From NCBI RefSeq assembly GCF_001424485.1, contig NZ_LMQC01000012.1:271012-335011 (forward strand): DNA of 64,000 nucleotides. Direction: 5' to 3'. This document shows positions 39,500 to 54,150 of the stretch, piece after piece (positions within the stretch are counted from its first letter, which is position 1; each line of letters opens with the position of its first letter). The stretch comes from Modestobacter sp. Leaf380. GTDB taxonomy: Bacteria; Actinomycetota; Actinomycetes; Mycobacteriales; Geodermatophilaceae. Under the pieces are notes generated by a model that had not been told where the DNA came from, did no database searches, and saw only the letters and a program-made list of their open reading frames with translations. The position numbers and the translations under genes were made by a program.

Positions 39500-41329
39500 T
39501 CAGGCCGCGGCGACCCGCGAGACCCGGTCCAACGCCGCCCAGACCCCGGCGGCCAGGACGTCGTTCTGACCGAAGAACGGGGCGTTCGTGCCCGGCCGGG
39601 CGAACGCGGCGACGGGGGCGCCGGAGGTCCAGAACCCGGCCGCGAAGACATCGGCGGCAGGCTCCCCCAGCGCGGAGACCAGCCGGTGCCCGGCGTCCAC
39701 GTGCAGCCGGCCGGTGCCGGGCTGCTCGGCCGCGACCCCGCGCACCAGCAACCGGCGGACCAGCTCGTCGGTGGTGCGCTCGACGTCGACCGCCGGCACC
39801 CGGGCCTCCACCAGCGCGGTCCCGCTGGTCGTCCCGGGGACGCTCACGGAGCGGGCCACCCAGGCGCCGTCCTCCAGGGTGACGGCGGTGTCGGCGCCGG
39901 TGAACCGGACGACGCCGGCCTCCGACAACGCCAGCAGCTCCTCCAGCCGGGGGGACGGCGGCCCGCTGGCCAGGTAGCTGAAGAGGTTCATCCACCAGCC
40001 GGCGACGTCCTCGCGGGCGGAGCGGTCTGTGAGCCGGCCGCTGCGGGCCAGCGCGGCGATGGTGCCGTGGCACTGCAGCAGGGCCACGAAGACCGCGGCG
40101 TCCATCGAGTACGCCGGGTCCGCGGCGCGGGCGAGGTCGGCCCGTACGTGCGCGCGGGTCCAGCCTTGCAGCTCGCCGGCGTCGGCGAACGCGCGCCCGG
40201 CCAGCGGGCGGTCCAGGGCGGCCAGGTCGAACCGGTCGGCCGGGTCGGGCACCGCGCGCGCGACCAGCGCGGCCGCCTCGGCGGGCTCCTCGGTGGCTCG
40301 CCACTGCACCGCGAAGGCCTCCCAGGGCTCCCGCACCCGGTCGGGGTGGGCGCGGAAGAGCTCGGTGAGGTGGGCCCACTCCAGCTCCCGGGCGAGGATC
40401 GGGGCCAGGTCGGCACGCAGGTCCAGCGGGCGGTCGCCGAACCGGGCGGTGACCGCGTCGGGGGTGAAGGCGTGCAGCGGCACCGGCGGGCCGGCCCAGG
40501 CGTAGCCGAGCTTGGCCCGGTAGGGCACCCCGCGGCGGGACCCCACGTGCAGCACCGGCTCCCGCCCCGAGGGCGCGTAGACCAGCCGGCCGTCGGCGTC
40601 GCGGTGGTACGTGCCGCCGCGGCCGCCGGTCAGCAGCGTGACCAGGTCGACGAAGGCCAGTCCGGCTCCGCGGACCAGCACGTCCTCCCCCGGCCGCAGG
40701 GCGGACAGGTCCAGGTCGGCGGTGTACCCGGTGGGCACGAAGCCCAGCCCGTGCTCCCGGGCCCGTCGCGCCAGCTCGGCCTCGGCGTCGGAGGGCAGTG
40801 CGTCCAGGTGGCCCTGGGCCAGCACCACCGCGTCGACGTCCAGGTGTCGGCCGTCGGCCAGCACCACCCGCGGGCCGCTGAGCACGTCGACCGCACGGGT
40901 GGCGTGCCGGTGCACGGTCACCCCCGGGGACGCGGCCAGCGTCGAGAGCACCCAGCCCAGGTACCCGTTGACCAGTCGGCGCGAGGGGAAGGACGTCGCC
41001 GTCAGCCGCCGGGCCTCGACCCCGACGTCCCCGGGCAGGCCGCGACCGGTCTGCTCGACCCAATGCCACAGCGTCGTGCCGGCCCCGATCCGGCCCTCGA
41101 CGGCGACCGAGGCGTCGGGCAGCACGGTGATGTCGGCAGCCAGTGAGTTGGCCCACAGCAGCTCGGACTGGGCGGTCCGCCAGACCCGTCCGCCGCCGGG
41201 CGGGTGCGGGTCGACCAGGTGCACGACCAGGGGGCGGCCGGCGGCGCGGCCGACCAGCCGTTCGAGGACGCCGAGGGCGGTGGGACCGGCGCCGACGAGG
41301 GCGACGGCGGAGGGGGACGTGCTGGTCAC
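39500..41329 (-). CDS. FAD/NAD(P)-binding flavoprotein under a Cys leader peptide
   Basis: A 609-aa protein with a Rossmann FAD site at the start (AVALVGAGPTALGVLERLVG, about 8-27), the NAD_binding_9-type LLWANSLAADITVLPD, FPSRRLVNGYLGW, a second nucleotide site (GEDVLVRGAGLAFVDLVTLL) and a C-terminal GFWTSGAPVAAFARPGTNAPFFGQND. It may be an N- or S-oxygenase-type flavoprotein; the substrate is unknown. It is preceded by a Leu-Cys-Arg leader peptide and faces the SAM-IV operon divergently, so it belongs to the sulfur regulon. GTG 41329 has GGAG upstream. Confidence 0.85.
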   Translation of the reverse strand: MTSTSPSAVALVGAGPTALGVLERLVGRAAGRPLVVHLVDPHPPGGGRVWRTAQSELLWANSLAADITVLPDASVAVEGRIGAGTTLWHWVEQTGRGLPGDVGVEARRLTATSFPSRRLVNGYLGWVLSTLAASPGVTVHRHATRAVDVLSGPRVVLADGRHLDVDAVVLAQGHLDALPSDAEAELARRAREHGLGFVPTGYTADLDLSALRPGEDVLVRGAGLAFVDLVTLLTGGRGGTYHRDADGRLVYAPSGREPVLHVGSRRGVPYRAKLGYAWAGPPVPLHAFTPDAVTARFGDRPLDLRADLAPILARELEWAHLTELFRAHPDRVREPWEAFAVQWRATEEPAEAAALVARAVPDPADRFDLAALDRPLAGRAFADAGELQGWTRAHVRADLARAADPAYSMDAAVFVALLQCHGTIAALARSGRLTDRSAREDVAGWWMNLFSYLASGPPSPRLEELLALSEAGVVRFTGADTAVTLEDGAWVARSVSVPGTTSGTALVEARVPAVDVERTTDELVRRLLVRGVAAEQPGTGRLHVDAGHRLVSALGEPAADVFAAGFWTSGAPVAAFARPGTNAPFFGQNDVLAAGVWAALDRVSRVAAA

Positions 41330-41354
41330 GGGTGCTCCGGGAGGGTGCGGTGGG

Positions 41355-41447
41355 TCAGGGCGCGGGGACCTGCCGGCACCGACACAGCGCGCTCCCGGTC
41401 CGCTGGAGGTCCACGTGCCGACGGCGCACGAGCGGGGTGCGGGACAC
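41355..41447 (-). CDS. Sulfur-regulated leader peptide 1
   Basis: A 30-codon ORF with ribosome binding site GAGAGGAG just before GTG 41447. The peptide includes LVRRRHVDLQRTGSALCR and ends 25 bases before the flavoprotein start. It matches the actinobacterial putative leader peptide pattern (RRHVDLxRxxSALCR) that precedes sulfur assimilation genes. Ribosome stalling at the Cys codon under cysteine limitation could free the downstream start. Mechanism is inferred. Confidence 0.75.
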   Translation of the reverse strand: MSRTPLVRRRHVDLQRTGSALCRCRQVPAP

Positions 41448-41504
41448 GGTGACTCCTCTCCGGGACGGGGTGACGACACCCATTGTCTACCAAGTCGATC
41501 GGGT

Positions 41505-41534
41505 TTGACGTATCGGCCTCTCGTCTCCTAGCTT
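41505..41534 (+). promoter_or_regulatory. Promoter of the SAM-IV/GNAT/ABC operon
   Basis: TTGACG (41505-41510), 18-base spacer, TAGCTT (41529-41534); predicted start near 41541, exactly at the riboswitch edge. The sequence GTCGATCGGGTTTGACG covers the -35 and recurs upstream of the second riboswitch. Confidence 0.7.
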
Positions 41535-41540
41535 CCTCCC

Positions 41541-41650
41541 AGGTCCTGAGTGCCAGCGACAAGCCCCGGCTCGCTGGCCGGCAACCCTCCACTGCGGTGG
41601 GGTGCCCCGGGTGACGACCTGGCGACGGTGCACGACTGTCGCAAGTGCAG
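41541..41650 (+). ncRNA. SAM-IV riboswitch 1
   Basis: The RNA shows closing pairs AGGTC/GACCT, GAGTGCCAGCG, AAGCCCCGGCTCGCTGGC, CGGCAACCCTCC, GGTGGGGTGCCCCGGGTGACGACC and the downstream P5-like stem with GCAAGTGCAG, the order and core bases of SAM-IV riboswitches known from actinobacteria. High S-adenosylmethionine is expected to switch the downstream genes off. Confidence 0.87.
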
Positions 41651-41682
41651 CCCCGCCCGACGGCGGGGGACGAGGAGACGAC

Positions 41683-41790
41683 ATGGAGACCACCACGACC
41701 GCCCCGCGGTCCACGGTGCTGCACGCCCTCCTGCTGGTCGGCCGGCCGGTCATCGACCTGGTCCGCACCGACAGCGCGCTCTGTCGCTGA
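41683..41790 (+). CDS. Sulfur-regulated leader peptide 2
   Basis: A 35-aa peptide from ATG 41683, preceded by GAGGAG, that ends VGRPVIDLVRTDSALCR. It lies between the SAM-IV riboswitch and the GNAT/ABC genes, so one transcript carries two sulfur sensors in series. The DLVRTDSALCR end matches leader 1. Confidence 0.75.
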   Translation: METTTTAPRSTVLHALLLVGRPVIDLVRTDSALCR

Positions 41791-41845
41791 CCCGCAGCTG
41801 ACCCGGGGCCAGGCCCCCAGCCCTCCCCCAGCGACACCCGGCCGC

Positions 41846-41859
41846 GCCGAGCGCTCGGC
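41846..41859 (+). terminator. Candidate attenuator palindrome after leader peptide 2
   Basis: The 160-base gap before the GNAT gene contains GCCGAGCGCTCGGC, a perfect palindrome in a GC-rich stretch that could be an attenuation hairpin linked to leader translation. No competing structure was worked out. Confidence 0.3.
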
Positions 41860-41950
41860 CCGGTGACGGCCGCCCCCGACCGAGCGGCCCCTCCCGTGCG
41901 CCCCCACCCCGAGACACGGGGTCCTCAGCCGATCCCCCAGGAGCACCCGC

Positions 41951-42499
41951 ATGCCCCCGCCCTCCCTGCTGCAGGCCGTCGTCGTGCACCCCGACGACGA
42001 GCGCGCCGCGCCGCTCTTCGCCGCGCTGACCGTCGAGTACGACGCCCGGTACGGCGACCTGTTCGGCGGTGCCGCCCAGGAGCTGACCCGCTACCCCACC
42101 CACCTGTTCACCGCCCCGCACGGTGCGTTCGTGCTGCTGCTGGAGGACGACGCCGCCGTCGCCGGTGGCGCCTTCATGCCGCACCCGAACGAGGACACCG
42201 TCGAGGTCAAGCGGATGTGGACGGCAGCCGGCCACCGCCGCCGCGGGCTGGCCCGCCGGGTGCTCACCGAGCTGGAGGTGCTCGCCGCCGCGCGCGGCGC
42301 GCGGCGGGTCTTCCTCACCACCGGCCCGCGCCAACCCGAGGCCCGCGACCTCTACCTCGCCGCCGACTACACCCCGCTCTTCGACCCCGCCGTCCCCCGC
42401 CCCACCGACCTGGAGTCACTGCGTGCGCTCCCGGTCGCCGAGCGCGTCTACGGCTTCACCAAGCACCTCCCCGACCACACACCTGGAGCACCCCGATGA
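41951..42499 (+). CDS. GNAT N-acetyltransferase in sulfur operon
   Basis: A 182-aa acetyltransferase: EVKRMWTAAGHRRRGLARRVLTELEVLAAARGARRVFLTTGPRQPEARDLYLAADYTPLF carries the acetyl-CoA loop (HRRRGLARRVL, about 95-105) and the C-terminal Tyr region. Its place at the head of a cystine-type importer matches Bacillus YtmI/SnaB, which N-acetylates S-alkylcysteine. Substrate assignment is inference. Its stop overlaps the permease ATG. Confidence 0.88.
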   Translation: MPPPSLLQAVVVHPDDERAAPLFAALTVEYDARYGDLFGGAAQELTRYPTHLFTAPHGAFVLLLEDDAAVAGGAFMPHPNEDTVEVKRMWTAAGHRRRGLARRVLTELEVLAAARGARRVFLTTGPRQPEARDLYLAADYTPLFDPAVPRPTDLESLRALPVAERVYGFTKHLPDHTPGAPR

Positions 42500-43476
42500 C
42501 CGCCCTGCAGACCCGGCCGGAGGTCGCGGCCGACGTCCCGGCCGGCACCCCGTACGACGCGTTCACCGTGGTCAGGGCCCGGCATCCTGGCCGGTGGGTG
42601 GCCACCGCGGTGGTGGCCGTGCTGCTGGCGATGGTGGTGAACTCGTTGGTCACCAACCCGCGCTGGGAGTGGGGCGTGGTCTGGGCGTACCTGGGCGAGG
42701 AGTCGATCGTCCGCGGCGTGCTGACCACGGTGCAGCTCACGCTGATCACCGCGGTGCTCGGCTTCGCGCTGGGGACGGTGCTGGCGCTGATGCGGCTGAG
42801 CCGCTCGCCGCTGCTGCGGGCGGTGAGCTGGGGCTACACCTGGGTGTTCCGCTCGGTGCCGCTGATCCTGCAGCTCCTGCTCTGGTACAACCTCGCCTAC
42901 CTGTACCAGACCATCGACCTGGGCATCCCGTTCGGGCCCTCCTTCGCCAGCATCGAGACGCTGTCGCTGATCGACAAGTTCGGTGCCGCGATCCTGGGGC
43001 TGGGTCTGCACCAGGCCGCCTACTCCGCCGAGATCGTCCGGGCCGGCATCCTCTCGGTCGACCAGGGCCAGCACGAGGCCGCGGCCAGCCTCGGCATCCC
43101 GCGTCGCCGGCAGTCCACGAAGATCGTGCTGCCGCAGGCGATGCGGACCATCGTGCCCACCGCGGTCAACGAGGTCATCGGCCTGTTCAAGGGCACCTCG
43201 ATCGTCTACGTGCTGGCGCTGGGCGAGCTGTTCTACACCGTCAGCGTCATCTACGGCCGGACCCAGCGGGTGCTCCCGATGCTGGTGGTCGCCGCCGTCT
43301 GGTACGTCGTGCTGACCACGGTGGTGACGGTGCTGCAGTACTACGTGGAGCGGCACTATGCGAAGGGCGCGGTCCGGACGCTGCCACCGACGCCGCTGCA
43401 ACGGCTTCGCGGCAACCTGACCGCCGGCCTCTCGCGCGTGCGGTCCACCTCCGGCCAGGACCCGGTGCTCCCGTGA
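42496..43476 (+). CDS. Polar amino acid ABC transporter permease
   Basis: A 326-aa membrane permease of the HisMQ type. A long cytosolic N-terminus (about 35 residues), a first helix, then five or more helices; the core VQLTLITAVLGFALGTVLALMRLSRSPLLR and the EAA loop EAAASLGIPRRRQSTKIVLPQAMR (about 196-219) are clear. It serves alone as the permease, presumably as a homodimer, with two binding proteins downstream. Confidence 0.93.
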   Translation: MTALQTRPEVAADVPAGTPYDAFTVVRARHPGRWVATAVVAVLLAMVVNSLVTNPRWEWGVVWAYLGEESIVRGVLTTVQLTLITAVLGFALGTVLALMRLSRSPLLRAVSWGYTWVFRSVPLILQLLLWYNLAYLYQTIDLGIPFGPSFASIETLSLIDKFGAAILGLGLHQAAYSAEIVRAGILSVDQGQHEAAASLGIPRRRQSTKIVLPQAMRTIVPTAVNEVIGLFKGTSIVYVLALGELFYTVSVIYGRTQRVLPMLVVAAVWYVVLTTVVTVLQYYVERHYAKGAVRTLPPTPLQRLRGNLTAGLSRVRSTSGQDPVLP

Positions 43477-44276
43477 CCGCGGTGCAGGGCACGGCGGGCC
43501 GTGTCGAGGTGCCCACGGCGGGCCGTGTCGAGGTGCACGGCGTGCACAAGTCGTTCGGGGCGCACGAGGTGCTGCACGGGGTGGACCTGGTGGTCGAGCC
43601 GGGCAGCGTGACCGTCGTCCTGGGGCCGTCGGGGTCGGGGAAGTCGACGCTGCTGCGCTCGATCAACCACCTGGAGACCGTCGACCGCGGGTTCGTGGCG
43701 CTGGACGGCGAGCTGGTCGGCTACAGCCGCAAGGGTGAGAAGCTGTACGAGCTCAAGGAGGCCGAGCTGCTGCGCCAGCGCACCCGGTTCGGCTTCGTCT
43801 TCCAGTCCTTCAACCTCTTCCCGCACCTGACGGCGCTGCAGAACGTCGTCGAGGCACCGGTGTCGGCGCAGGGCCGGCCGCGCCGGGAGGTGGAGGCCGA
43901 GGCCCGCGAGCTGCTGGCCCGGGTGGGTCTGGCCGACAAGGCCGACGCACACCCGCGGCAGCTGTCGGGCGGGCAGCAGCAGCGGGTGGCGATCGCCCGC
44001 GCGCTTGCCATGCGCCCGGCGGTCCTGCTCTTCGACGAGCCGACCTCCGCACTGGACCCCGAGCTGGTGGGTGAGGTGCTCCAGGTGATCGAGGACCTGG
44101 CCCGGACCGGCACCACGATGATCGTCGTCACCCACGAGATCGGCTTCGCCCGGCAGGCCGCCGACCAGATCGTCTTCATGGACGAGGGGCGCGTCGTCGA
44201 GCAGGGCACCCCCGAGCAGGTCCTCGACGACCCGCAGCACGAGCGGACCCGCGCCTTCCTGGCCAGGGTGCTCTGA
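43473..44276 (+). CDS. Polar amino acid ABC transporter ATPase
   Basis: A 267-aa ATPase with Walker A GPSGSGKST (about 51-59), Q-loop VFQSFNLFPHLT, signature LSGGQQQRVAIARAL, Walker B LLFDEPTSALDPEL and H-loop VTHE. Similar to GlnQ/TcyN. The N-terminus contains a duplicated TAGRVEV caused by a 24-base tandem repeat. Confidence 0.95.
   Translation: MTAVQGTAGRVEVPTAGRVEVHGVHKSFGAHEVLHGVDLVVEPGSVTVVLGPSGSGKSTLLRSINHLETVDRGFVALDGELVGYSRKGEKLYELKEAELLRQRTRFGFVFQSFNLFPHLTALQNVVEAPVSAQGRPRREVEAEARELLARVGLADKADAHPRQLSGGQQQRVAIARALAMRPAVLLFDEPTSALDPELVGEVLQVIEDLARTGTTMIVVTHEIGFARQAADQIVFMDEGRVVEQGTPEQVLDDPQHERTRAFLARVL
43491..43538 (+). repeat. 24-base tandem duplication within the ATPase gene
   Basis: Two in-frame copies of ACGGCGGGCCGTGTCGAGGT plus GCCC or GCAC (43491-43514 and 43515-43538) differ by one base. 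They add eight residues before the ATPase core. Confidence 0.85.
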
Positions 44277-44380
44277 CCCAGCCGCTCCACCCCCTGACCC
44301 CGGACGGCGCACCTCGCGCCGTCCGTCGGTCCGGCGCGCCCGCGACCGGACCACCGCCCCGCACAGAAGAGAGAACGACC

Positions 44381-45364
44381 GTGACTGCACGCCCCCGACA
44401 CCGTGGCCGCCGCCGCACCGTCTCCGTCCTGGCCGCCGCCGCACTCCTGGCCCTGGCGGCGTGCAGCAGCTCCGCCGACATCGAAGCCGAAGCCCGCGAG
44501 GGGACGGCGGACCCGCAGGCCGTCAGCGTCGACACCTCCCCCGACCAGGACCGCGTGCACACCACGGTCAGCGACGAGGCGGTGGCGCTGCTCCCGCCGG
44601 GCGCCTTCCCCGACGGCGTGCTGCGCGTCTCGGTGACCCAGGGCGCGGTGCCGCTGGCGTTCTACGCCGACGACAACACCACCGTGATCGGCAGCGAGAC
44701 CGACCTGGCCACCCTGTTCGCCGACGCCCTGGGCCTGGAGCTGGAGCTGGTGGTCGTCGACTGGTCGAACTGGCCGCTGGCCGTGCAGTCCGGCGAGGTG
44801 GACGCCGTCGTGTCCAACGTGACGGTGACCGAGGAGCGCAAGCAGCTCTACGACTTCGCCACCTACCGGGTCGACCAGCTCGGCTGGCTGGTCGGTGCGG
44901 ACTCCGGGTTGTCGATCTCGGCGGCGCCCGACGTCGCCGGGCTGACCGTGGGGGTCTCCTCGGGCACCAACCAGGAGCAGGTCCTGCTCAGCTGGGACGC
45001 GGAGAACGTCGCCGCGGGCCTGGAACCGGTGACGATCGACTACCACCAGAGCTACAACGACGCCGTCCTCGCGCTGCAGTCGGGCCGACTGGACGCCTAC
45101 GTCGGGCCCAACCCGACCGCGGCCTACAGCGCCGCGACCTCCCCGCAGGACTTCGCCATCGCCGGGACGACGAACGGCGGCTGGCCTGCGACCGCGGACA
45201 TCGCCGTCACCACGGTGAAGGGCAACGGGTACGCCGAGGCGTTCGCCGCGGCCATCGACCACGCCATCGCCGACGGCAGCTACGCCGAGGTGCTGGCCCG
45301 CTGGGGGCTGGGCGCCGAGGCCGTCGACGCCTCCCGGGTCAACCCGCCCGGGCTGGGTTCCTGA
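44381..45364 (+). CDS. Amino acid ABC substrate-binding lipoprotein 1
   Basis: A 327-aa periplasmic-type binding protein, anchored as a lipoprotein (signal with RRRTVSVLAAAALLALAACSSS; lipobox LAAC). The SBP_bac_3 fold is shown by GVLRVSVTQGAVPLAFYADDNTTVIGSETDL and the hinge GQSGxLDA-type motif QSGRLDAYVGPNP. About 55% alike in key blocks to the next gene, so the pair arose by duplication. Confidence 0.92.
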   Translation: MTARPRHRGRRRTVSVLAAAALLALAACSSSADIEAEAREGTADPQAVSVDTSPDQDRVHTTVSDEAVALLPPGAFPDGVLRVSVTQGAVPLAFYADDNTTVIGSETDLATLFADALGLELELVVVDWSNWPLAVQSGEVDAVVSNVTVTEERKQLYDFATYRVDQLGWLVGADSGLSISAAPDVAGLTVGVSSGTNQEQVLLSWDAENVAAGLEPVTIDYHQSYNDAVLALQSGRLDAYVGPNPTAAYSAATSPQDFAIAGTTNGGWPATADIAVTTVKGNGYAEAFAAAIDHAIADGSYAEVLARWGLGAEAVDASRVNPPGLGS

Positions 45365-45414: not shown

Positions 45415-46383
45415 GTGAAGCTGTCCCACCTGGTCTCCGCCGTCCCGCTGGCGACCGTGATCCTGCTGTCGGCCTGCACCAGCTCGGCCGAGATCGAGGC
45501 CGACCAGCGGGCCGACACCGTCGAGGCCGGGGAGAGCGCGGCCCTGGTGGTCGACACCTCCCCCGGGCAGGCCGACCGGGTGCGCAGTGACGAGGCCGCC
45601 GAGGCGGTCGCCCTGCTGCCGGACTCCGTCGCCGAGGACGGCGTGCTGACCGTCGGCGTCACCGGCGCCGGGGACCCGCCACTGGGCTTCCTGGCCGACG
45701 ACAACAGCACGGTGGTGGGCAGCGAGGTGGACATCGCGCAGCTGGTCGCCGACGGCCTGGGCCTGGAGCTCGAGGTGGTCAACACGACGTGGGAGGGCTG
45801 GCCGCTGGCCGTGCAGTCCGGCGCCCTGGAGGCGGTGTTCTCCAACGTGGGGGTCAACGCCGAGCGGCTGCAGCTCTTCGACTTCGCCACCTACCGGCAG
45901 GGGATCATGGCCTTCATCGCAGCTCCGGACAGTGGACTGGACATCACCGACGCTGCGGGGATCTCGGGCCAGCGCGTCGGGGTGGGGTCGGGCACCAACC
46001 AGGAGCGGATCCTGCTGGACTGGAACGCCCAGCTGGAGGCCGACGGGCAGGAGCCGGCGACGCTGGACTACTACGTCAGCGCCGCGGACGCCCTGCTGGC
46101 CATCCAGTCCGGTCGGCTGGACACCTACCTCGGGCCCAACCCCAACGCGGTCTACCAGGCGTCGGTCGGTGACCTGGAGGTCGTCGGCACGGTCAACGCC
46201 GGGTGGCCGAACACCACCTACGTGGCCGCGACGACCCTGAAGGGCAGCGGCCTGGTGGAGGCGGTGCAGGCGTCGCTGCAGCACGCCTTCGACGACGGCA
46301 GCTACGCCCAGACCCTGGCCCGCTGGGGCCTGTCCGACGAGGCCGTCGACGCCCCGGAGGTGAACCCCACCGTCGCGTCGTAG
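45415..46383 (+). CDS. Amino acid ABC substrate-binding lipoprotein 2
   Basis: A 322-aa paralogue of the preceding gene: lipobox LSAC, GVLTVGVTGAGDPPLGFLADDNSTVVGSEVDIAQLVADGLGLELE, and QSGRLDTYLGPNPNAVYQ. The GTG has GAGAGG 7 bases upstream. Two binding proteins sharing one permease and ATPase recall TcyJ and TcyK of Bacillus. Confidence 0.92.
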   Translation: MKLSHLVSAVPLATVILLSACTSSAEIEADQRADTVEAGESAALVVDTSPGQADRVRSDEAAEAVALLPDSVAEDGVLTVGVTGAGDPPLGFLADDNSTVVGSEVDIAQLVADGLGLELEVVNTTWEGWPLAVQSGALEAVFSNVGVNAERLQLFDFATYRQGIMAFIAAPDSGLDITDAAGISGQRVGVGSGTNQERILLDWNAQLEADGQEPATLDYYVSAADALLAIQSGRLDTYLGPNPNAVYQASVGDLEVVGTVNAGWPNTTYVAATTLKGSGLVEAVQASLQHAFDDGSYAQTLARWGLSDEAVDAPEVNPTVAS

Positions 46384-46438: not shown

Positions 46439-46732
46439 TCACCGGGCCGGCGGCTCCACCCGAGCGAGCCAGGCCGTGAGCAGCTCCTCCAGGGCGACGG
46501 CCTGCTGCGGGGTGAGGTCGGCCAGCAGCCGCGCCTCGTTGGCCACGTGGTCGGCGAAGGCCTCGTCGATCACCCGGCGCCCGGCATCGGTCAGGTGGAC
46601 CACCCGTCCGCGCCCGTCGGCGTCGTCCCGACTGCGGGCGACGAGCCCGTCGCGCTCCAGGCGGTCCAGCCGCTTGCTCATGGCACCGCCGTCGTCGGCG
46701 GCATCGCCCTCGGCCAGCCGGCGGTGACCCGG
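46439..46732 (-). pseudogene. MarR regulator remnant lacking its N-terminal half
   Basis: The reading retains only the C-terminal part of a MarR protein: GGAMSKRLDRLERDGLVARSRDDADGRGRVVHLTDAGRRVIDEAF and the end helices LLADLTPQQAVALEELLTAW. Upstream of about 46732 the frame turns to Arg/Pro-rich nonsense instead of the dimer helices and first half of the winged helix. It is squeezed against the next gene, so a deletion probably removed its beginning. Confidence 0.68.
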
Positions 46733-46812
46733 GCGCTGCGCCGTCGGACACGCCCGCCGGTGCGAGGGGACGCGCGGACCGGCCGCACGCCCCCTCACCC
46801 GTCGTCCCCCGG

Positions 46813-48186
46813 TCAGGCCGCCGGGCCGCCACACCCGGCGCCGCGGGCGACGGCGGTCAGGTCCGCGCCGGCCAGCCCGGCGACCGGGCGCGGGTCGCTC
46901 ACGGGCTGCCAGCGGCCCTCGACCACGGCGTAGTCCACCGCCGGCCCGTCGGCGACGAACCGGGCGACGGCGGCCACCAGCCGGGCGACGTCGTCACCGG
47001 TGGTGCCCACCCCGACACTGGCCCGCAGCGCCCCCTCGGGGACGCCGAGCCGGGCCAGCAGCGGGTGCGCGCAGAACCGGCCGTCCCGCACGCCGATGCC
47101 GTGCTCGGCGGACAGGTAGGCCGCGACCAGGCCCGGGTCGGCGCCCGCGACGGTGAAGCCGACGACGCCGGTGGGCTCCACCGAGTCCGACCAGATGCGC
47201 AGCAGCCGCACGCCGTCCACGGCGTCCAGCCCCTCGACGAGCTGCTCGCGGAGGGCCCGCTCGTGCTCCTCGAGCTCGCCGGGGGCCAGCGCGGCGAGCG
47301 CGTCGCAGGCGGCGGCGAGGGCGACGGCGCCCAGGACGTTGGGCGACCCGCCCTCGTGCCGGTGCGGGGCGGCCACCCAGCCGGTCGACTCGACCGTGAC
47401 CTCGGTGACGGCTCCCCCACCGGCCAGGTGCGGGCGGCCGGTGTCCAGCCAGTCCCGCCGCCCGACCAGGGCGCCGACGCCGAAGGGTGCGTAGGCCTTG
47501 TGCCCGGAGAAGGCGACCCAGTCCGCACCGGAGTCGGCGAGGGAGAACCGGCGGTGCGGGACGGACTGGGCGCCGTCGACGACCACCCGGGCACCCGCGG
47601 CGTGCGCCAGCGCGACGACGTCTGCCAACGGCAGCGACTCCCCGGTGACGTTGGAGGCGCCGGTGACGGCGACCAGGGCGTAGCACCGGGCGGCCAGCGC
47701 CTCGCCCAGCGCCCGCAGGGTGTCGGCGACGGTGGGCCGGGTGGGCAGCACGGTGCAGGCGCCGCCGCCGGACCGCTCGCGCTGCTGCCACGGCAGCAGG
47801 TCGGCGTGGTGCTCGCAGTCCAGCACCAGCACCGCGCCACCGGCGGGCAGGCAGCCGGCGAGCAGTCCCAGGCCGTCGGTGGTGTTGCGGGTCAGCACGC
47901 AGACGTCGTCCGGGCGGGCGCCGACGAAGGCCGCGACGGTGTCCCGCGCCGACTCGTACAGGGCCGTGGAGACCTGGGAGAGGTGGCCGGCGCCGCGGTG
48001 CACGCTGGCGTAGAGCGGCAGCGCCTCGGCCACCCGGGCGGCGACCGCGGCCAGTGCCGGGGCGCTCGCGGCGACGTCGAGATTGGCGTACTGCGCGGTG
48101 CCGCCGGTGACCAGCGGCACGCGGGTGTCGGCGCCGACGGCGGGCAGCAGGGCGGGGACGGGACGGCAGGCGAGGGTCGTGGACAT
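46813..48186 (-). CDS. Class V aminotransferase, cysteine desulfurase-like
   Basis: A PLP enzyme of 457 aa. The PLP lysine is K230 in FSGHKAYAPFGVGAL; other blocks are HRGAGHLSQVSTALYESAR, TRNTTDGLGLLAG, TGASNVTGESLPLADVV and VVDGAQSVPHR. The C-terminus ends in an unusual extension (DYAVVEGRWQPV, then GCGGPAA) after the usual FVADG. Family members are cysteine desulfurases, selenocysteine lyases or cysteine lyases. AGGAG is 7 bases before the ATG; a SAM-IV riboswitch precedes it, consistent with a sulfur role. Confidence 0.87.
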   Translation of the reverse strand: MSTTLACRPVPALLPAVGADTRVPLVTGGTAQYANLDVAASAPALAAVAARVAEALPLYASVHRGAGHLSQVSTALYESARDTVAAFVGARPDDVCVLTRNTTDGLGLLAGCLPAGGAVLVLDCEHHADLLPWQQRERSGGGACTVLPTRPTVADTLRALGEALAARCYALVAVTGASNVTGESLPLADVVALAHAAGARVVVDGAQSVPHRRFSLADSGADWVAFSGHKAYAPFGVGALVGRRDWLDTGRPHLAGGGAVTEVTVESTGWVAAPHRHEGGSPNVLGAVALAAACDALAALAPGELEEHERALREQLVEGLDAVDGVRLLRIWSDSVEPTGVVGFTVAGADPGLVAAYLSAEHGIGVRDGRFCAHPLLARLGVPEGALRASVGVGTTGDDVARLVAAVARFVADGPAVDYAVVEGRWQPVSDPRPVAGLAGADLTAVARGAGCGGPAA

Positions 48187-48225
48187 GCTCGGACTCCTGG
48201 TGGGTCAGGGCCCGCACGCGAGGCG

Positions 48226-48341
48226 GGACCGGCGCTTGCGGCTGCGCTGCGCAGCCGCCGGGTCGTCACCCGGAGCACCCCATCGCGGTGGAAGGGTTGC
48301 CGACCAGCGAGCCGGGGCTTCGCGCTGGTACTCGTGACCTG
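48226..48341 (-). ncRNA. SAM-IV riboswitch 2
   Basis: Minus-strand AGGTCACGAGTACCAGCG, AAGCCCCGGCTCGCTGGTC, GGCAACCCTTCC, GATGGGGTGCTCCGGGTGACGACC and the distal GCTGCGC/GCGCAGC stem with GCAAGCGCCGG follow the SAM-IV layout. It ends about 40 bases before the desulfurase ATG. Confidence 0.87.
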
Positions 48342-48346
48342 GTTCC

Positions 48347-48376
48347 AGCCTGGCAGACCCCCGGGCTACCCGTCAA
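48347..48376 (-). promoter_or_regulatory. Promoter of the desulfurase/SAM-IV unit
   Basis: TTGACG (48376-48371), 18-base spacer and CAGGCT (48352-48347) on the minus strand, with the start predicted at the riboswitch edge. The preceding GTCGATCGGGATTGACG matches the promoter at 41494-41510 in 16 of 17 bases. Confidence 0.6.
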
Positions 48377-48455
48377 TCCCGATCGACGTGGTGGAGAACA
48401 GACGGCACGGGCCGGACAGCCCCGCGAGGAGCTGCCCGGCCCGGGGCCGTGCGGG

Positions 48456-49283
48456 TCAGAACGCGGGGATGACCGCGCCGTCGTACTCGTCGAGGATGAA
48501 CTGGCGCACCTCGTCGGAGTGCAGCAGCTCCTCCAGGGTCTGGATCCGCTCGTCGGACTCGTCACCGGCGCGCACGACCACCAGGTTGGCGTTGGGGTTG
48601 CCCTCGGCCTCCTCCAGCGCGAGGGCGTCCTGCGCCGGGGACAGGTCGGCGTCGATGGCGTAGTTGCCGTTGATCACCGCGATGTCGACGTCGGCCAGCG
48701 AGCGGGGCACCTGGGCCGCCTCGACCTCGGAGATCTCCAGGTCCAGCGGGCTGCTCTCCACGTCCAGCGAGGTGGGGGCGGCGTCACCGGTGTCGGCCAG
48801 CACGACCAGGTCGTTGGCCTCCAGCAGCCGCAGCGCGCGGGCGGCGTTGGTGGGGTCGTTCGGGATCGCCACGGTCGCGCCCTGCTCCAGCTGCGACAGG
48901 TCGGTCAGCGACTGCGAGTAGATGCCCAGCGGCTCGACGTGCACCGGCTCCAGGGCGGTGAAGTCGTAGCCCGCGGTCGACTCCTGCTCCTCCAGGTAGG
49001 GCACGGTCTGGAAGAAGTTGGCGTCCAACGAGCCGTCGTCCAGCGCGACGTTGGGCTGCACGTAGTCGGTGAACTCGACGACGTCGAGGTCCAGCCCGGC
49101 GTCCTCGGCCAGGTTCTCCTCCACGAAGCGCAGGATCTCCGCGTGCGGGACCGGCGAGGCACCGACGCGCAGCGGCTCGTCGGCGCCGGACAGCTCGGCG
49201 TTCCCACCGCCGCAGGCAGCGAGGACCGCGGTGGTGGTGAGGGCGGACAGGGTCAGGGCGAGGCGACGCACGAGGTTCTCCAT
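48456..49283 (-). CDS. metQ: MetQ/NlpA methionine-type binding lipoprotein
   Basis: A 275-aa NlpA-family lipoprotein (signal to lipobox LAAC in ALTTTAVLAACGGG). Typical blocks are VGASPVPHAEILRFV, VEFTDYVQPNVALDDGSLDANFFQTVPYLE, VHVEPLGIYSQS and VAIPNDPTNAARALRLL. It ends the metNIQ operon. Substrate may be methionine or another organosulfur compound. Confidence 0.94.
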   Translation of the reverse strand: MENLVRRLALTLSALTTTAVLAACGGGNAELSGADEPLRVGASPVPHAEILRFVEENLAEDAGLDLDVVEFTDYVQPNVALDDGSLDANFFQTVPYLEEQESTAGYDFTALEPVHVEPLGIYSQSLTDLSQLEQGATVAIPNDPTNAARALRLLEANDLVVLADTGDAAPTSLDVESSPLDLEISEVEAAQVPRSLADVDIAVINGNYAIDADLSPAQDALALEEAEGNPNANLVVVRAGDESDERIQTLEELLHSDEVRQFILDEYDGAVIPAF

Positions 49284-49290
49284 GGGGTGG

Positions 49291-49950
49291 TCAGCGACGC
49301 GCCAGTCGGCGCGCCCAGGTGTCGCCGCCGAACTGCAGCGCCTGGACGACGACGAGCAGCAGGGCGACGGTGAGCAGGGTGATGTCGGTGCGGAACTGCT
49401 GGTAGCCGAACCGGATGGCGAAGTCGCCCAGGCCGCCGCCGCCGATGGCGCCGGCCATGGCCGAGTAGCTGATCAGCGCGACGACGGTGACGGTGACGCC
49501 GGCGACCAGCGAGGGCAGCGCTTCGGGCAGCAGCACGGTGCGGACGACGTCCCGGCGGCGGGCGCCCATCGCCAGGGCCGCCTCGACCTTGCCGTGCGCG
49601 ACCTCGCGCAGGCTGGTCTCGACCAGCCGGGCCAGGAACGGGACGGCGCCGATGGTCAGCGGGACGATCGCGGCGGTGGAGCCGATGGTGGTGCCGACCA
49701 GGCCACGGGTCAGCGGGGCGACCAGCACCAGCAAGATGATGAACGGCAGCGAGCGCCCCAGGTTGACGACCAGGCCGAGGACCCGGTGCAGCACCGGGTG
49801 CGGGGCCAGCGCGCGGGGTCCGGTGACGGTGAGCAGCACGCCGAGCGGGATGCCCAGAAGCACGGTGACCACCGCGGAGACGGCGACCATGTAGAGGGTC
49901 TCGCCGGTGGCGTCGGCCAGCTGCGGCCAGATCCGGGACCAGTCGCTCAT
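49291..49950 (-). CDS. metI: MetI methionine ABC transporter permease
   Basis: A 219-aa permease with about five helices. The family blocks ATGETLYMVAVSAVVTVLLGIPLGVLL, LVVNLGRSLPFIILLVLVAPLT and the EAA region EAALAMGARRRDVVRTVLLPEALP (about 141-164) are visible. The ATG overlaps the metN stop as ATGA. Confidence 0.95.
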   Translation of the reverse strand: MSDWSRIWPQLADATGETLYMVAVSAVVTVLLGIPLGVLLTVTGPRALAPHPVLHRVLGLVVNLGRSLPFIILLVLVAPLTRGLVGTTIGSTAAIVPLTIGAVPFLARLVETSLREVAHGKVEAALAMGARRRDVVRTVLLPEALPSLVAGVTVTVVALISYSAMAGAIGGGGLGDFAIRFGYQQFRTDITLLTVALLLVVVQALQFGGDTWARRLARR

Positions 49951-50954
49951 CGGGCCGCCCCGGCCACGACGCGCTCGACCCGGGACCCGGCACCGCGCAG
50001 CCGTTCCAGGGCGCCGTCCAGGCCGCTCTGGTCGGCGCCGGTGACCCGCAGCAGCAGCCGGCCGTGCCGGCCGCCGGCGACGGTCTCCACCGAGCCGCCG
50101 GCGACCTCGACGTCCAGGCCGAGCCCGCCGACCAGCGCCTGCAGGACCCGGGTCTCGGGGGCCGCGTCGGTGACGGTGACCCGCACCAGGGTCCCGGTGT
50201 CCCGGTCGTCGGCCAGCGGGGCCGGCAGCAGGGCCTCGGCCAGTGGGGAGTCCCCGCGCGACAGCACCTCGTCGAGGCGGCCGCCGTCGACGACCCGGCC
50301 GGCCTCCAGCAGCACCGCGGAGTCGCAGACCGCCTTGACCACGGACATCTCGTGGGTGATGAGCAGGACGGTGAGGCCCAGCTCGTCGCGCACCCGGCGC
50401 AGCAGCTGCAGCACGCCGGTGGTGCTGGCCTGGTCCAGTGCTGAGGTGGCCTCGTCGCAGAGCAGCACCGTGGGCCGGGCGGCCAGCGCGCGGGCGATGG
50501 CCACCCGCTGCTTCTGCCCGCCGGACAGCTGCGCGGGCCGGGCCGTGGCCCGCTCGGCCAGGCCGACCAGGTCCAGCAGCTCCCCCGAGCGGCGCCGCCG
50601 CTCCGCGCGGCCGACACCGGCCAGCTCCAGCGGGTGCTCGACGTTCTCCGCCGCGGTCCGTGAGTCCATCAGCTCGAAGTGCTGGAAGACCATGCCGATC
50701 GAGCTGCGGGCCTTCCGGACCTCCTCGGCGGACAGGTCGGTGAGCACCCGGCCGTCGACGGTCACCGAGCCCGAGGTGGGCCGCTCCAGCAGGTTGACCA
50801 GCCGGATCAGCGTGCTCTTGCCCGACCCGGAAGGACCGACGACGCCGGCGAAGTCACCGGCGGGGACGGCGAGGTCGACGCCGTCCAGCGCGACGACCTC
50901 CTGGCCCCCGCGGGCGGCCGGGAAGACCTTGCGGACGTTCGACAGTTCGATCAC
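49947..50954 (-). CDS. metN: MetN methionine ABC transporter ATPase
   Basis: A 335-aa ATPase with Walker A GPSGSGKST, FQHFELMDSRTAAENVEHPLELAGV, signature LSGGQKQRVAIARAL, Walker B LLCDEATSALD and a C-terminal NIL/ACT domain (about 255-330) that in E. coli MetN senses methionine. GTG 50954 has AGGAGA 10 bases upstream. A Leu-Cys-Arg leader peptide lies ahead. Confidence 0.95.
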   Translation of the reverse strand: MIELSNVRKVFPAARGGQEVVALDGVDLAVPAGDFAGVVGPSGSGKSTLIRLVNLLERPTSGSVTVDGRVLTDLSAEEVRKARSSIGMVFQHFELMDSRTAAENVEHPLELAGVGRAERRRRSGELLDLVGLAERATARPAQLSGGQKQRVAIARALAARPTVLLCDEATSALDQASTTGVLQLLRRVRDELGLTVLLITHEMSVVKAVCDSAVLLEAGRVVDGGRLDEVLSRGDSPLAEALLPAPLADDRDTGTLVRVTVTDAAPETRVLQALVGGLGLDVEVAGGSVETVAGGRHGRLLLRVTGADQSGLDGALERLRGAGSRVERVVAGAAR

Positions 50955-51066
50955 GGGGAGGGGGTCTCCTGGCTGTGGGGGCCCGCGGGACGGCACACGG
51001 GCACGGCCGACCCGGCGGCGCGGGGGTGGAGCGGAGGTGCGGACGGCCACGGGAGGGCCGACGGGG

Positions 51067-51138
51067 TCAGCGACAGAGCCAGCTGGCGGTGCCGGCGTGG
51101 TCGACGGCGAGGTCGCGCGTCAGGAGGAGCCGGGGCAC
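51067..51138 (-). CDS. Sulfur-regulated leader peptide 3
   Basis: A 23-codon ORF from GTG 51138; its peptide contains LLLTRDLAVDHAGTASWLCR and stops about 112 bases before metN. The LLLTR start and terminal WLCR fit the actinobacterial leader peptide family, though the spacing Arg-Arg-His is degenerate here. It probably senses cysteine for metNIQ. Confidence 0.68.
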   Translation of the reverse strand: MPRLLLTRDLAVDHAGTASWLCR

Positions 51139-51170
51139 CCCGCCATGGTGCACGGCCGTGCGCTATCCCT

Positions 51171-51190
51171 ACAAACCCGGTGGGGTTTGT
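51171..51190. promoter_or_regulatory. Inverted repeat in the metN / LLM divergent region
   Basis: ACAAACCC-N4-GGGTTTGT, a perfect 8-base dyad about 30 bases upstream of leader peptide 3, is a candidate operator or a stop signal between divergent units. Confidence 0.4.
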
Positions 51191-51290
51191 GTGAGGGGGT
51201 TCTCACCCCACCGACGCCTCCGGATGGAAGGCCCCTCGCCCATTCGGCTGACGATCGCACCGTCAATCCCTACTAGACCGATGAGGGAAG

Positions 51291-51320
51291 TGGACAACGG
51301 TCGGCGGCGTTGGCTAGCGT
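51291..51320 (+). promoter_or_regulatory. Promoter of the SAM-IV/LLM operon
   Basis: TGGACA (51291-51296), 18-base spacer and TAGCGT (51315-51320) place the start near 51327 at the riboswitch edge, the same geometry as the other two riboswitches. Confidence 0.6.
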
Positions 51321-51325
51321 CGTGG

Positions 51326-51435
51326 CCGGTCGAGAGCGTCAGCATCGAGCCCTGGCTTGCTGACCGGCAACCCCCCGTCCCGGCGGGGTGCCCCAGGTGA
51401 TGACCCGGCGGAGGCGCCCACCTCCGCAAGCGGAG
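51326..51435 (+). ncRNA. SAM-IV riboswitch 3
   Basis: GGTCGAGAGCGTCAGCATCGA, GCCCTGGCTTGCTGAC, CGGCAACCCCCC, GGCGGGGTGCCCCAGGTGATGACC and the distal CGGAGG/CCTCCG stem with GCAAGCGGAG again follow the SAM-IV order. It lies 19 bases before the first monooxygenase. Confidence 0.87.
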
Positions 51436-51454
51436 ACACAGCACGAGGAGAGCC

Positions 51455-52666
51455 ATGACCCACACGCCCCTGCACCTCGTCGCCGCGCTGGAGGGCGCCG
51501 GCTGGCACCCGGCCGCCTGGCGGGAGCCCGGCGCCCGCCCCCGCGAGCTGCTCACCGCCCGGTACTGGGTGGACCTGGCCGCCGAGGCCGAACGTGGCCT
51601 GCTCGACGCGGTGACCATCGAGGACGCCCTGCAGCTGCAGTCCGAGGACCCCTTCGCCCCCGACGACCGCACCGACCGGGTCCGCGGCCGCCTGGACGCG
51701 GTGCTGCTGGCCGCCCGGGTCGCCCCGACCACCCGGCACCTGGGCTTCCTCCCGACGGCGGTCACCACGCACACCGAGCCCTTCCACCTGAGCAAGGCCG
51801 TCGCCACGCTGGACCACGTGTCCACCGGGCGGGCCGGGGTCCGGGTGCAGGTCGCGGTCCGCGCCGACACCGCCGGGCACTTCGGCCGCCGCGAGGTGCC
51901 GACCGTCAGCCGGGACCGCCACGACGACCCGGAGGTCCAGCGGTTCGTCGCCGACCAGTTCGACGAGGCCGCCGAGTACGTCGAGGTGCTCCGCCGGCTC
52001 TGGGACAGCTGGGAGGACGACGCCGAGATCCGGGACGCCGCCACCGGCCGGTTCGTCGACGTCGACAAGCTGCACCACGTCGACTTCGAGGGCCGTTCGT
52101 TCTCGGTGCGGGGGCCCTCGATCACCCCGCGCCCGCCGCAGGGCCAGCCGGTCGTCGCCGCGCTCGGGCACGCCGAGGTGCCGTGGCGCTTGATCGGCCG
52201 CTCCGCGGACCTGGGCTTCGTCACCCCGACCGACGCCGCCGACGCCGCCCGGCTGGTGGCCGCGGTGCGCAGCGAGCAGGCCGACGCCGGTCGCGCCGAG
52301 GAGACCGTGCACGTGTTCGGTGACCTCGTCGTGGCGCTCGACGAGGACGAGGCCACCGCCCGGGAGAGGTTGCAGCGGCTGGACGAGTGGGCCGGCGTCG
52401 CGTTCACCAGCGACGCCCACGTGTTCACCGGGACGCCGTCCCAGCTGGCCGACCTGCTCGGTGAGTGGCAGCAGGCCGGGCTGACCGGCTTCCGGCTGCG
52501 CCCGGCGACGCTCCCGCACGACCTGGAGCAGATCACCCGCGGCCTGGTGCCCGAGCTGCAGCGCCGTGGCCTGTTCCGCACCGGGTACGAAGCCGACACC
52601 CTGCGCGGGCTGCTCGGCCTGGGCCGCCCGGCCAACCGCTACGCCGCCCAGCCCACGAACGCCTGA
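51455..52666 (+). CDS. LLM-class flavin-dependent monooxygenase 1
   Basis: A 403-aa bacterial-luciferase-like TIM-barrel enzyme that uses FMNH2 and O2. Visible blocks: WREPGARPRELLTARYWVDLAAEAERGLLDAVTIEDAL, ARVAPTTRHLGFLPTAVTTHTEPFHLSKAVATLDHVSTGRAGVRVQV and RPPQGQPVVAALGHAEVPW. Relatives cleave C-S or C-N bonds; Bacillus CmoO/YtmO is a functional parallel. GAGGAG precedes the ATG. It is first behind SAM-IV riboswitch 3. Confidence 0.9.
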   Translation: MTHTPLHLVAALEGAGWHPAAWREPGARPRELLTARYWVDLAAEAERGLLDAVTIEDALQLQSEDPFAPDDRTDRVRGRLDAVLLAARVAPTTRHLGFLPTAVTTHTEPFHLSKAVATLDHVSTGRAGVRVQVAVRADTAGHFGRREVPTVSRDRHDDPEVQRFVADQFDEAAEYVEVLRRLWDSWEDDAEIRDAATGRFVDVDKLHHVDFEGRSFSVRGPSITPRPPQGQPVVAALGHAEVPWRLIGRSADLGFVTPTDAADAARLVAAVRSEQADAGRAEETVHVFGDLVVALDEDEATARERLQRLDEWAGVAFTSDAHVFTGTPSQLADLLGEWQQAGLTGFRLRPATLPHDLEQITRGLVPELQRRGLFRTGYEADTLRGLLGLGRPANRYAAQPTNA

Positions 52667-52676
52667 AGAGCCCGCG

Positions 52677-54041
52677 ATGCCCAAGCAGATCCACCTCGCC
52701 GCGCACTTCCCCGGCGTCAACAACACCACCGTGTGGAGCGATCCCGCCTCGGGCAGCCACATCGAGTTCGACTCGTTCCGCGAGTTCGCGCAGATCGCCG
52801 AGGCCGGCAAGCTCGACTTCGTCTTCCTGGCCGAGGGCCTGCGACTGCGCGAGCAGAACGACCGCATCTACGACCTGGACGTCGTCGGCCGGCCCGACAC
52901 CTTCACCGTGCTGGCCGCGCTGGCCGCCGTCACCGAGCGGATCGGGCTGACCGGCACGATCAACTCCACGTTCAACGAGCCCTACGAGGTGGCCCGGCAG
53001 TTCGCCACCCTCGACCACCTCTCCGACGGCCGCGCCGCCTGGAACGTGGTGACCTCCTGGGACGCGTTCACCGGCGAGAACTTCCGGCGCGGCGGCTTCC
53101 TGGCCCAGGCCGACCGGTACGACCGTGCGCGGTCCTTCCTGCAGACCGCGCTGGAGCTCTTCGACTCCTGGCGGGGCGACGAGGTGGTCGCGGACAAGGA
53201 CCGCGGCACGTTCCTGGCCGACCCGCACCCCGGGGCCTTCGCGCACCGGGACGCCTTCTTCGACATCGCCGGCCAGTTCGACGTCCCCCGGAGCCCGCAG
53301 GGCCGCCCGGTGGTCTTCCAGGCCGGCGACTCCGACGAGGGCCGGGACTTCGCCGCCGCCGCGGCCGACGTCATCTTCTCCCGGCACAGCACGCTGGAGG
53401 CCGGCCAGGCCTTCTACGCGGACGTGAAGGGGCGGTTGCCCCGGTTCGGCCGCACCCGCGAGGAGCTGCTGATCATGCCGGCGGCCACCTTCGTCCTCGG
53501 TGACACCGAGGACGAGGCGGCCGAGCTGGCGCACGAGGTCCGGATGGCTCAGGTCTCCCCCGCGACGGCGGTGGCGTTCCTGGAGCAGCTGTGGAACCGG
53601 GACCTCTCCGACCACGACCCCGACGGTCCGCTGCCCTCGGTCGACCCGGTGGCCGGGGAGAACACCATCGCCCGGGGCCGGGCCAGCGTGCGGATGCACC
53701 GCGACCCGGTGGCCACCGCGCACGAGTGGCGGGCCAAGGCCGAGGCCGAGGGGCTGACCAGCCGCGAGCTGATCGTCGAGGTGACCGGCCGGCAGTCCTT
53801 CATCGGCACCCCGGCCACGGTCGCGGCGACCATCGACGAGTTCGTGCAGGCCGACGCCAGCGACGGCTTCGTGCTGGCCCCGCACATCACCCCCGGCGGC
53901 CTGGCGCCCTTCGTCGAGCAGGTCGTGCCGCTGCTGCAGGAGCGCGGGGTGTTCCGCACCGACTACGAGGGGACGACGCTGCGCGAGCACCTCGGGCTGC
54001 CGCTGCGACAGCCCGGTGGGGCAGCGGCCGCGGCCTCCTGA
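52677..54041 (+). CDS. NtaA/SnaA/DszA-type flavin monooxygenase 2
   Basis: A 454-aa enzyme of the nitrilotriacetate/desulfurisation monooxygenase group: HLAAHFPGVNNTTVWSDPASGSHIEFDSF, DHLSDGRAAWNVVTSWDAFTGENFRRGG, RPVVFQAGDSDEGRDFAAAAADVIF and FIGTPATVAATIDEFVQADASDGFVLAPHITPGGLAPFVEQVVPLLQERGVFR, all hallmarks of the family. CmoJ/YtnJ of Bacillus, which acts on N-acetyl-S-alkylcysteine, belongs here. It follows LLM1 by 10 bases. A flavin reductase is not in the window. Confidence 0.93.
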   Translation: MPKQIHLAAHFPGVNNTTVWSDPASGSHIEFDSFREFAQIAEAGKLDFVFLAEGLRLREQNDRIYDLDVVGRPDTFTVLAALAAVTERIGLTGTINSTFNEPYEVARQFATLDHLSDGRAAWNVVTSWDAFTGENFRRGGFLAQADRYDRARSFLQTALELFDSWRGDEVVADKDRGTFLADPHPGAFAHRDAFFDIAGQFDVPRSPQGRPVVFQAGDSDEGRDFAAAAADVIFSRHSTLEAGQAFYADVKGRLPRFGRTREELLIMPAATFVLGDTEDEAAELAHEVRMAQVSPATAVAFLEQLWNRDLSDHDPDGPLPSVDPVAGENTIARGRASVRMHRDPVATAHEWRAKAEAEGLTSRELIVEVTGRQSFIGTPATVAATIDEFVQADASDGFVLAPHITPGGLAPFVEQVVPLLQERGVFRTDYEGTTLREHLGLPLRQPGGAAAAAS

Positions 54042-54048
54042 GCCGACC

Positions 54049-54150
54049 GTGGAGGCGCACTGGTTCCTGCCCACCCGCGGGGACGGCCGGGACGTCGGAC
54101 CGGGGCCACGACCGGGGCCACCGAACACGCCCAGCCCACCGCCGTCCTGA
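54049..54150 (+). pseudogene. N-terminal stub of a third LLM (SsuD-like) monooxygenase
   Basis: GTG 54049 opens a 33-codon frame beginning EAHWFLPTRGDGRDVG, closely like the start of alkanesulfonate-type monooxygenases (FHWFLPTxGDGR), then passes into Pro/Gly-rich sequence and a stop at 54150. It begins 7 bases after the second LLM gene. I read it as the surviving start of a deleted third monooxygenase. Confidence 0.6.

Follow-up and report, generated by a model that had tools for sequence, protein, structure and literature searches.

SAM-IV riboswitches and cysteine leader ORFs at a candidate organosulfur-scavenging locus of Modestobacter sp. Leaf380

What might a group of genes do that stands under both S-adenosylmethionine (SAM) riboswitches of the SAM-IV class and short open reading frames (ORFs) of the cysteine-leader type, and how could two such sensors work together? 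The question is raised by a locus of Modestobacter sp. Leaf380 (Geodermatophilaceae) contained in a stretch of 64,000 nucleotides (assembly GCF_001424485.1, contig NZ_LMQC01000012.1, positions 271,012 to 335,011), called here the window. A first-pass annotation, made from the letters alone, had described a sulfur island resembling the S-alkylcysteine salvage genes of Bacillus, and its list of parts and sensors is borne out: three SAM-IV elements, a GNAT acetyltransferase, a one-permease importer with two binding proteins, a SufS-like desulfurase, the methionine importer MetNIQ, a flavoprotein, two luciferase-like monooxygenases (LLM1 and LLM2) and three cysteine leader ORFs. We propose, giving it nearly an even chance, that the window holds one instance of an organosulfur-scavenging regulon widespread in actinobacteria, combining thioether amino acid import, S-oxidation and oxidative C-S cleavage under dual SAM/cysteine control. 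Its regulation is more novel than its proposed pathway. The features of the locus are as follows (window positions).

39500..41329, minus strand: FAD/NADPH monooxygenase of the FzmM (L-aspartate N-hydroxylase) family, PF13454, proposed S-oxygenase (Pfam/NCBIfam)
41355..41447, minus strand: cysteine leader ORF of the flavoprotein gene, ending ...RRHVDLQRTGSALCRCRQVPAP (NF042934, 34.1 bits)
41542..41653, plus strand: SAM-IV riboswitch, first sensor of the importer operon (Rfam, 103.3 bits)
41683..41790, plus strand: cysteine leader ORF, second sensor of the tandem, ending ...VGRPVIDLVRTDSALCR (conserved in Geodermatophilaceae loci; NF042934, 18.2 bits)
41951..42499, plus strand: GNAT acetyltransferase (PF00583, 50 bits)
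42496..43476, plus strand: amino-acid ATP-binding cassette (ABC) permease, BPD_transp_1 (in NCBIfam nearest to a cystine permease, below cut-off)
43473..44276, plus strand: ABC ATPase (Pfam/NCBIfam)
44381..45364, plus strand: solute-binding protein 1, SBP_bac_3 (Pfam/NCBIfam)
45415..46383, plus strand: solute-binding protein 2, SBP_bac_3 (Pfam/NCBIfam)
46813..48186, minus strand: SufS-like class-V pyridoxal phosphate enzyme, Aminotran_5 (nearest NCBIfam model SufS, below its cut-off)
48227..48339, minus strand: SAM-IV riboswitch 5' of the desulfurase gene, without leader ORF (Rfam, 108.2 bits)
48456..50954, minus strand: metN-metI-metQ methionine importer (NlpA lipoprotein, MetI, MetN with NIL domain)
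51067..51153, minus strand: cysteine leader ORF 5' of metN, ending ...TASWLCR (no NCBIfam match)
51328..51438, plus strand: SAM-IV riboswitch 5' of the LLM pair, without leader ORF (Rfam, 93.5 bits)
51455..52666, plus strand: LLM1, divergent NtaA-like flavin monooxygenase (Bac_luciferase) of a clade of its own
52677..54041, plus strand: LLM2, NtaA/DmoA-family flavin monooxygenase (Bac_luciferase), nearest to CmoJ/YtnJ, 3sdo and DszA

The start of LLM2 is placed at 52677, which differs from that of the longest ORF, and the flavoprotein starts at about 41329, downstream of its own leader ORF. All three SAM-IV copies (RF00634) pass the Rfam gathering score of 38, with 108.2, 103.3 and 93.5 bits, and a fourth copy in the genome precedes metY and metX, both above their NCBIfam cut-offs. 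Three short ORFs of the window end in or near ALCR or WLCR, one 5' of the flavoprotein gene, one 5' of metN and one between SAM-IV and the GNAT gene. The NCBIfam model "putative leader peptide" NF042934 (cut-off 27 bits) gives 34.1 bits for the flavoprotein leader, 18.2 bits for the GNAT leader and no match for the metN leader. A CR ending alone is not distinctive, being found in 6 of the 386 small ORFs of the window; the leader ORFs are convincing because they are conserved, and not because of this count. The leader of the GNAT operon is kept in the window and in 13 further aligned Geodermatophilaceae sequences, and its end, GACAGCGCGCTCTGTCGCTGAC, is nearly invariant.

Leaders were selected by their amino-acid motif with the codon ignored, and the key cysteine codon is TGT in 40 of the 41 distinct strict leaders and in 60 of the 65 leaders of a looser set. 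The share of TGT is 23 of 78 among the remaining cysteine codons of the same leader ORFs and 489 of 3401 (14%) among those of long conserved ORFs in the neighbourhoods fetched; in 16 window genes the TGT:TGC ratio is 1:28. The leader sequences are related to one another, and these codon counts are given without a probability. A UGU bias was not met in the accessible parts of the literature on cysteine leaders, although no search aimed at it was made. In genomes that prefer UGC, this codon signature offers a handle for finding cysteine leaders.

In the importer operon, SAM-IV ends 29 nucleotides before the start of the leader ORF, which would be close enough for the riboswitch to act on leader translation. 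Using a covariance model built from the four copies of the genome, 48 SAM-IV copies were detected in 112 loci around LLM2 homologues, and in 28 of them a leader ORF follows (26 found by script, those of loci L129 and L132 read from the leader codon set). These tandems comprise 15 from Geodermatophilaceae importer or LLM operons, six from Streptomyces importer operons, three from Streptomyces LLM1 operons and four from importer operons of family 5 (Opp-type); L088 and L109 duplicate L067 and L051, and both are counted. The leader is absent behind all 13 copies that precede a desulfurase gene, behind six others before LLM1 (five of the own genus or Klenkia and one partial match, L070) and behind one copy without gene assignment. 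In L067, L068, L069 and L088, LLM1-LLM2 lies downstream of a family-5 importer whose binding-protein gene follows the tandem. Cysteine-containing ORFs listed by script after the SAM-IV before LLM1 in L057 and L059, and a second ORF in L121, were dropped as not leader-like; so was the short cysteine ORF listed for L129, which was replaced by another leader there.

How might the two sensors combine? High SAM would close the SAM-IV elements, a shortage of Cys-tRNA would stall the ribosome at the leader UGU and so open the downstream gene, and SAM-IV plus leader would form a gate that is fully open just when SAM and cysteine are both low. Tentatively, and at rather less than even confidence, we suggest a composite gate in which the state of the SAM-IV aptamer controls leader translation and the fixed UGU meters Cys-tRNA: a nested riboswitch and ribosome-mediated attenuator, reused across actinobacterial scavenging operons, whose importer and oxygenase genes would open when both sulfur end products are low. 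In this way the tandem suggests a means by which a single transcript of actinobacteria may respond to two sulfur end products. Translation attenuation has been reported for the cysteine genes of M. smegmatis (PMC13236596, in its accessible part), and a SAM-IV plus leader tandem is not described in the accessible parts of PMC8079986, PMC3890552 and PMC2965389.

Which genes belong to the regulon was considered from fetched stretches, and genes absent from own-genus loci may lie beyond the stretch. LLM1 and LLM2 lie side by side in 77 of the 80 named loci and in all 23 Geodermatophilaceae loci, every one of these loci being chosen by LLM2, and the pair is found in many Actinomycetota genera, which makes it a target for organosulfur enzymology. 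LLM2 is patchy in the Geodermatophilaceae (27 of 112 genomes at E 1e-120; 8 of the 9 listed own-genus genomes), and the closest named relative found is a Klenkia metagenome-assembled genome with an LLM2 (L074) 92% identical to that of the window. The first-pass annotation had suggested looking for the same neighbourhood across the family. Beside the LLM pair, the 17 Geodermatophilaceae loci outside the own genus (fetched stretches of 12-20 kb) contain the flavoprotein in 16 cases, GNAT in 12 and the permease in 11, but the desulfurase in five and MetNIQ in none; the six own-genus loci contain the desulfurase in six cases, binding proteins in five, the permease in three, MetNIQ in two, the flavoprotein in one and GNAT in none. 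The LLM pair is thus linked with importer and flavoprotein in Geodermatophilaceae, and partly in Streptomyces, and MetNIQ and the desulfurase are not core members of the set. To speak of a single 15-kb island was an overstatement, since among the Geodermatophilaceae loci examined metN-metI-metQ lies nearby just in own-genus loci, and in two of those six.

From these parts a route can be proposed. The importer would take up a thioether amino acid, for example an S-alkylcysteine, which GNAT may acetylate in a step that would not be indispensable. The FzmM-type FAD/NADPH enzyme would oxidise the sulfur, filling the place that CmoO has in Bacillus; oxidative cleavage of the C-S bond would fall to LLM2, together with LLM1 and a flavin reductase encoded outside the island; and the sulfur would come back as cysteine or sulfite. 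The desulfurase, which aligns through the cysteine-bearing segment of a solved cysteine desulfurase (RDGRFCAHP / RSGQHCAHP), may hand cysteine sulfur to the MetY route.

The flavoprotein is central to this route, and its homology can be read in two ways. It matches an L-aspartate N-hydroxylase over its full length and in fold, and it keeps the flavin-site residues and, of the catalytic site, W51, N62 and R577 of FzmM, the enzyme of Streptomyces sp. V2 (8cp2) from which the residue roles are taken (PMC10404684, in its accessible part). Fold and flavin site therefore place it in the FzmM type, but the aspartate-binding arginine cluster does not: R13, R409, R412, N413 and R416 are replaced by T, L, H, G and A, R266 is K, and R276 has no aligned counterpart. 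Among the 16 aligned flavoprotein rows, the last two (L147 and L045) retain R13. Full-length FzmM homology would suit an enzyme that converts an amino acid into a nitroso or N-hydroxylated metabolite, part of the locus then serving secondary metabolism. With the aspartate-recognition cluster mostly gone, and with a gene that has a cysteine leader and travels with sulfur genes in Geodermatophilaceae, we consider this unlikely. We propose instead, from these residues, that the flavoprotein is a sulfoxidase, and infer as its substrate an amino acid that contains sulfur and has no charge on its side chain.

Several observations weigh against the scavenging regulon and its gate. The first concerns the spread of the tandem in a second sample of 104 SAM-IV copies, chosen without LLM2 from genomes sampled over phylum and class, four of them from the own genome (L283, with just 21 nucleotides downstream, and L209, a contig-edge slice, are retained in the count). 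By script, the next gene in this sample is a desulfurase gene 39 times, metY 20 times and metX 10 times, two more metY cases (L004 and L272) being left out of that count. A regular expression for the leader motif matched behind three of the 104 copies (L002, which is the window, L250 and L276), compared with 0 of 104 reverse complements, 0 of 102 regions further downstream and a mean of 0.1 of 104 in two-base-block shuffles; two more leaders of the same kind were seen by eye (L241 and L271). These leaders precede the window importer operon, three family-5 binding-protein genes (L250, L271 and L276) and one TIGR03558 LLM (L241, 325 bits). In L227, L257, L269 and L272, the space between SAM-IV and a metY-like gene holds a short ORF rich in cysteine (with MCRCR or with runs of CCC or CCCC); as judged by eye, these ORFs form a second leader type behind SAM-IV. 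Because of its rarity in this sample, the tandem is a repeated but minority design, in the cases seen tied to import, oxidation and metY genes. As a separate observation, L241 and L262 (G299:C16:1956-2291) are a back-to-back pair of SAM-IV copies in opposite orientation, separated by about 100 bases.

The RNA itself speaks no more clearly for a gate. Simple base pairing between the 3' end of the leader and the Shine-Dalgarno sequence that follows it was tried as the mechanism and set aside: it was clearly better than in shuffles in 0 of 11 cases (fraction as good 0.2-0.94), so that no attenuation structure emerges from this comparison. Shuffled sequences fold as well as the entire 5' region (z -0.37), and the consensus fold of the leader region is a conserved hairpin at the cysteine codon, which has no covariation support because it hardly varies. 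Around the two TIGR03558 genes of the own genome, the fetched stretches contain no cysteine leader of this motif, nor do the stretches examined around its flavin reductases and M20 peptidases.

The gene set also varies. GNAT exceeds the score limit in none of the six own-genus loci, most of them truncated before the position where it would lie, and it is absent from L057, the one own-genus locus with the start of the operon in view. There, the stretch between leader and permease (4535-4660) has a 13-codon ORF in the usual place of GNAT, as if GNAT had been deleted; either the acetylation step can therefore be dispensed with, or a different gene provides for it. Outside the Geodermatophilaceae, the flavoprotein lies near the LLM pair in 1 of 76 loci and GNAT in 3 of 76.

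Finally, the LLM enzymes stand apart from CmoJ in a tree. It had been noted that one of the two was of the NtaA/SnaA type; both LLMs pass TIGR03860 (NtaA/DmoA, cut-off 279.7), with 285.9 and 407.6 bits. The best solved structures matching LLM2 are CmoJ/YtnJ (E 9e-81, 275 bits), 3sdo (1e-72, 248 bits) and DszA (4e-71, 243 bits), the last of these a dibenzothiophene sulfone monooxygenase (5tlc) that cleaves a C-S bond (PMC10863075, in its accessible part). In a tree of 29 rows with just these three reference enzymes, the long LLM1 row L047 being left out, LLM2 forms its own clade (100/99) apart from a clade of CmoJ and 3sdo (100/99), LLM1 is a third, separate NtaA-like clade, and the branching order of DszA, CmoJ with 3sdo, and LLM2 has low support (85/37).

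These scores leave room for a general scavenging of organosulfur compounds or sulfonates, in which LLM1-LLM2 would act, DszA- or SsuD-like, on sulfones, sulfonates or aromatic thioethers and release sulfite, the importer being a separate SAM/cysteine-regulated function. DszA and 3sdo are not far under CmoJ for LLM2, the pair often has no amino-acid importer nearby (a permease match above 120 bits in 18 of 76 loci outside the Geodermatophilaceae), and in some loci it has an importer of family 5 (Opp-type) as its neighbour. In the 112 LLM2 loci, clusters of neighbouring genes, made from ORFs filtered by third-position GC content and hence lower bounds, with one member of each tested, comprise a TIGR03558 LLM (32 loci), a second LLM type (23), a flavin reductase (7), an SsuD-like enzyme (7) and an OsmC protein (6). 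The tested SsuD-like member, from a cluster with three own-genus loci among its seven, is an alkanesulfonate-monooxygenase relative below cut-off; the second LLM type is TIGR04036-like, also below cut-off. L146:7757-8926 and L087:11374-12507 are examples of the two further LLM families, TIGR03558 and TIGR04036-like. The importer nevertheless adjoins the LLM pair in several loci of Streptomyces and Paractinoplanes as well as in Geodermatophilaceae, and we regard general scavenging as a serious possibility, well short of an even chance.

Is the locus then simply a member of the SnaA-CmoO-CmoJ pathway for S-alkylcysteine? The part list is similar, with CmoJ as the top solved match of LLM2, and the SAM/cysteine RNA control and an importer whose permease is nearest to a cystine permease (below cut-off) also speak for the Bacillus reading. 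CmoJ, however, falls outside the clades of LLM1 and LLM2, so that LLM2 is no CmoJ-clade member in the 29-row tree. CmoO, which we take to be a TIGR03558-type LLM, has no counterpart of that type in the locus, as LLM2 scores 28 bits against TIGR03558 (cut-off 167) and LLM1 is not among its matches; some relatives do have one, or else a flavin reductase, in the vicinity of the LLM pair. GNAT is present in the locus, with no more than weak PDB matches, and missing in L057. The earlier statement that all Bacillus parts except a deacetylase and a flavin reductase are there is right in that neither was found in the island, and too strong in that LLM1 is not of the CmoO type and GNAT is not always kept. 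Elsewhere, where it had suggested looking for both, the genome has three flavin reductases and 11 M20 matches (10 above cut-off) as candidate deacetylases, and also two TIGR03558 genes. Plain membership of the Bacillus pathway is thus very improbable in our view. Working like Bacillus salvage is plausible, and the locus most likely functions like an oxidative thioether salvage pathway; identity with that of Bacillus would be a step beyond this.

Two neighbours of the sulfur genes may be mentioned. A MarR-like short ORF (46439-46834, 131 amino acids), absent from the first-pass annotation, overlaps the end of the desulfurase gene and matches MarR models weakly, in their C-terminal part; it is possibly a truncated gene. 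Right after LLM2 begins a siderophore-type operon (54305-59572) with a decarboxylase, a lysine/ornithine N-hydroxylase, a GNAT and IucA/IucC genes, with an iron-box-like palindrome, TTAGGTGAGCCTCACCTTAG, near 54302; it is probably unrelated to the sulfur genes.

Known systems resemble this locus part by part, the comparisons with published work resting on the accessible parts of the papers cited. Actinobacterial cysteine leader peptides (PMC1262725, PMC4633059, PMC13236596; NF042934) are likewise short ORFs with cysteine codons near the end, before sulfur genes; here, the leader stands directly behind a SAM-IV aptamer and its key codon is nearly always UGU. In Streptomyces, a SAM-IV stands before the cysteine desulfurase gene SLIV_26975 (PMC8079986), as one does directly 5' of the desulfurase gene here, whereas the window has further copies on the importer and LLM operons. 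DszA, like LLM2 (243 bits), is an NtaA-family LLM, and one that cleaves C-S bonds, but LLM2 belongs to a separate lineage of the tree. FzmM (PMC10404684) shares with the window flavoprotein the full-length fold and the flavin-site residues, most of its aspartate-binding arginine cluster being replaced in the latter. The CmoO/CmoJ salvage of Bacillus subtilis (PMC10863075, PMC12757645) likewise combines an acetyltransferase, flavin monooxygenases (here among them a CmoJ-like enzyme of the NtaA family) and, as the first-pass annotation noted, an importer; the Modestobacter locus differs in having LLM1 in place of the TIGR03558-type LLM, no local deacetylase or reductase and a GNAT that is not always kept, and in adding an FzmM-type flavoprotein and control by SAM-IV and cysteine leaders.

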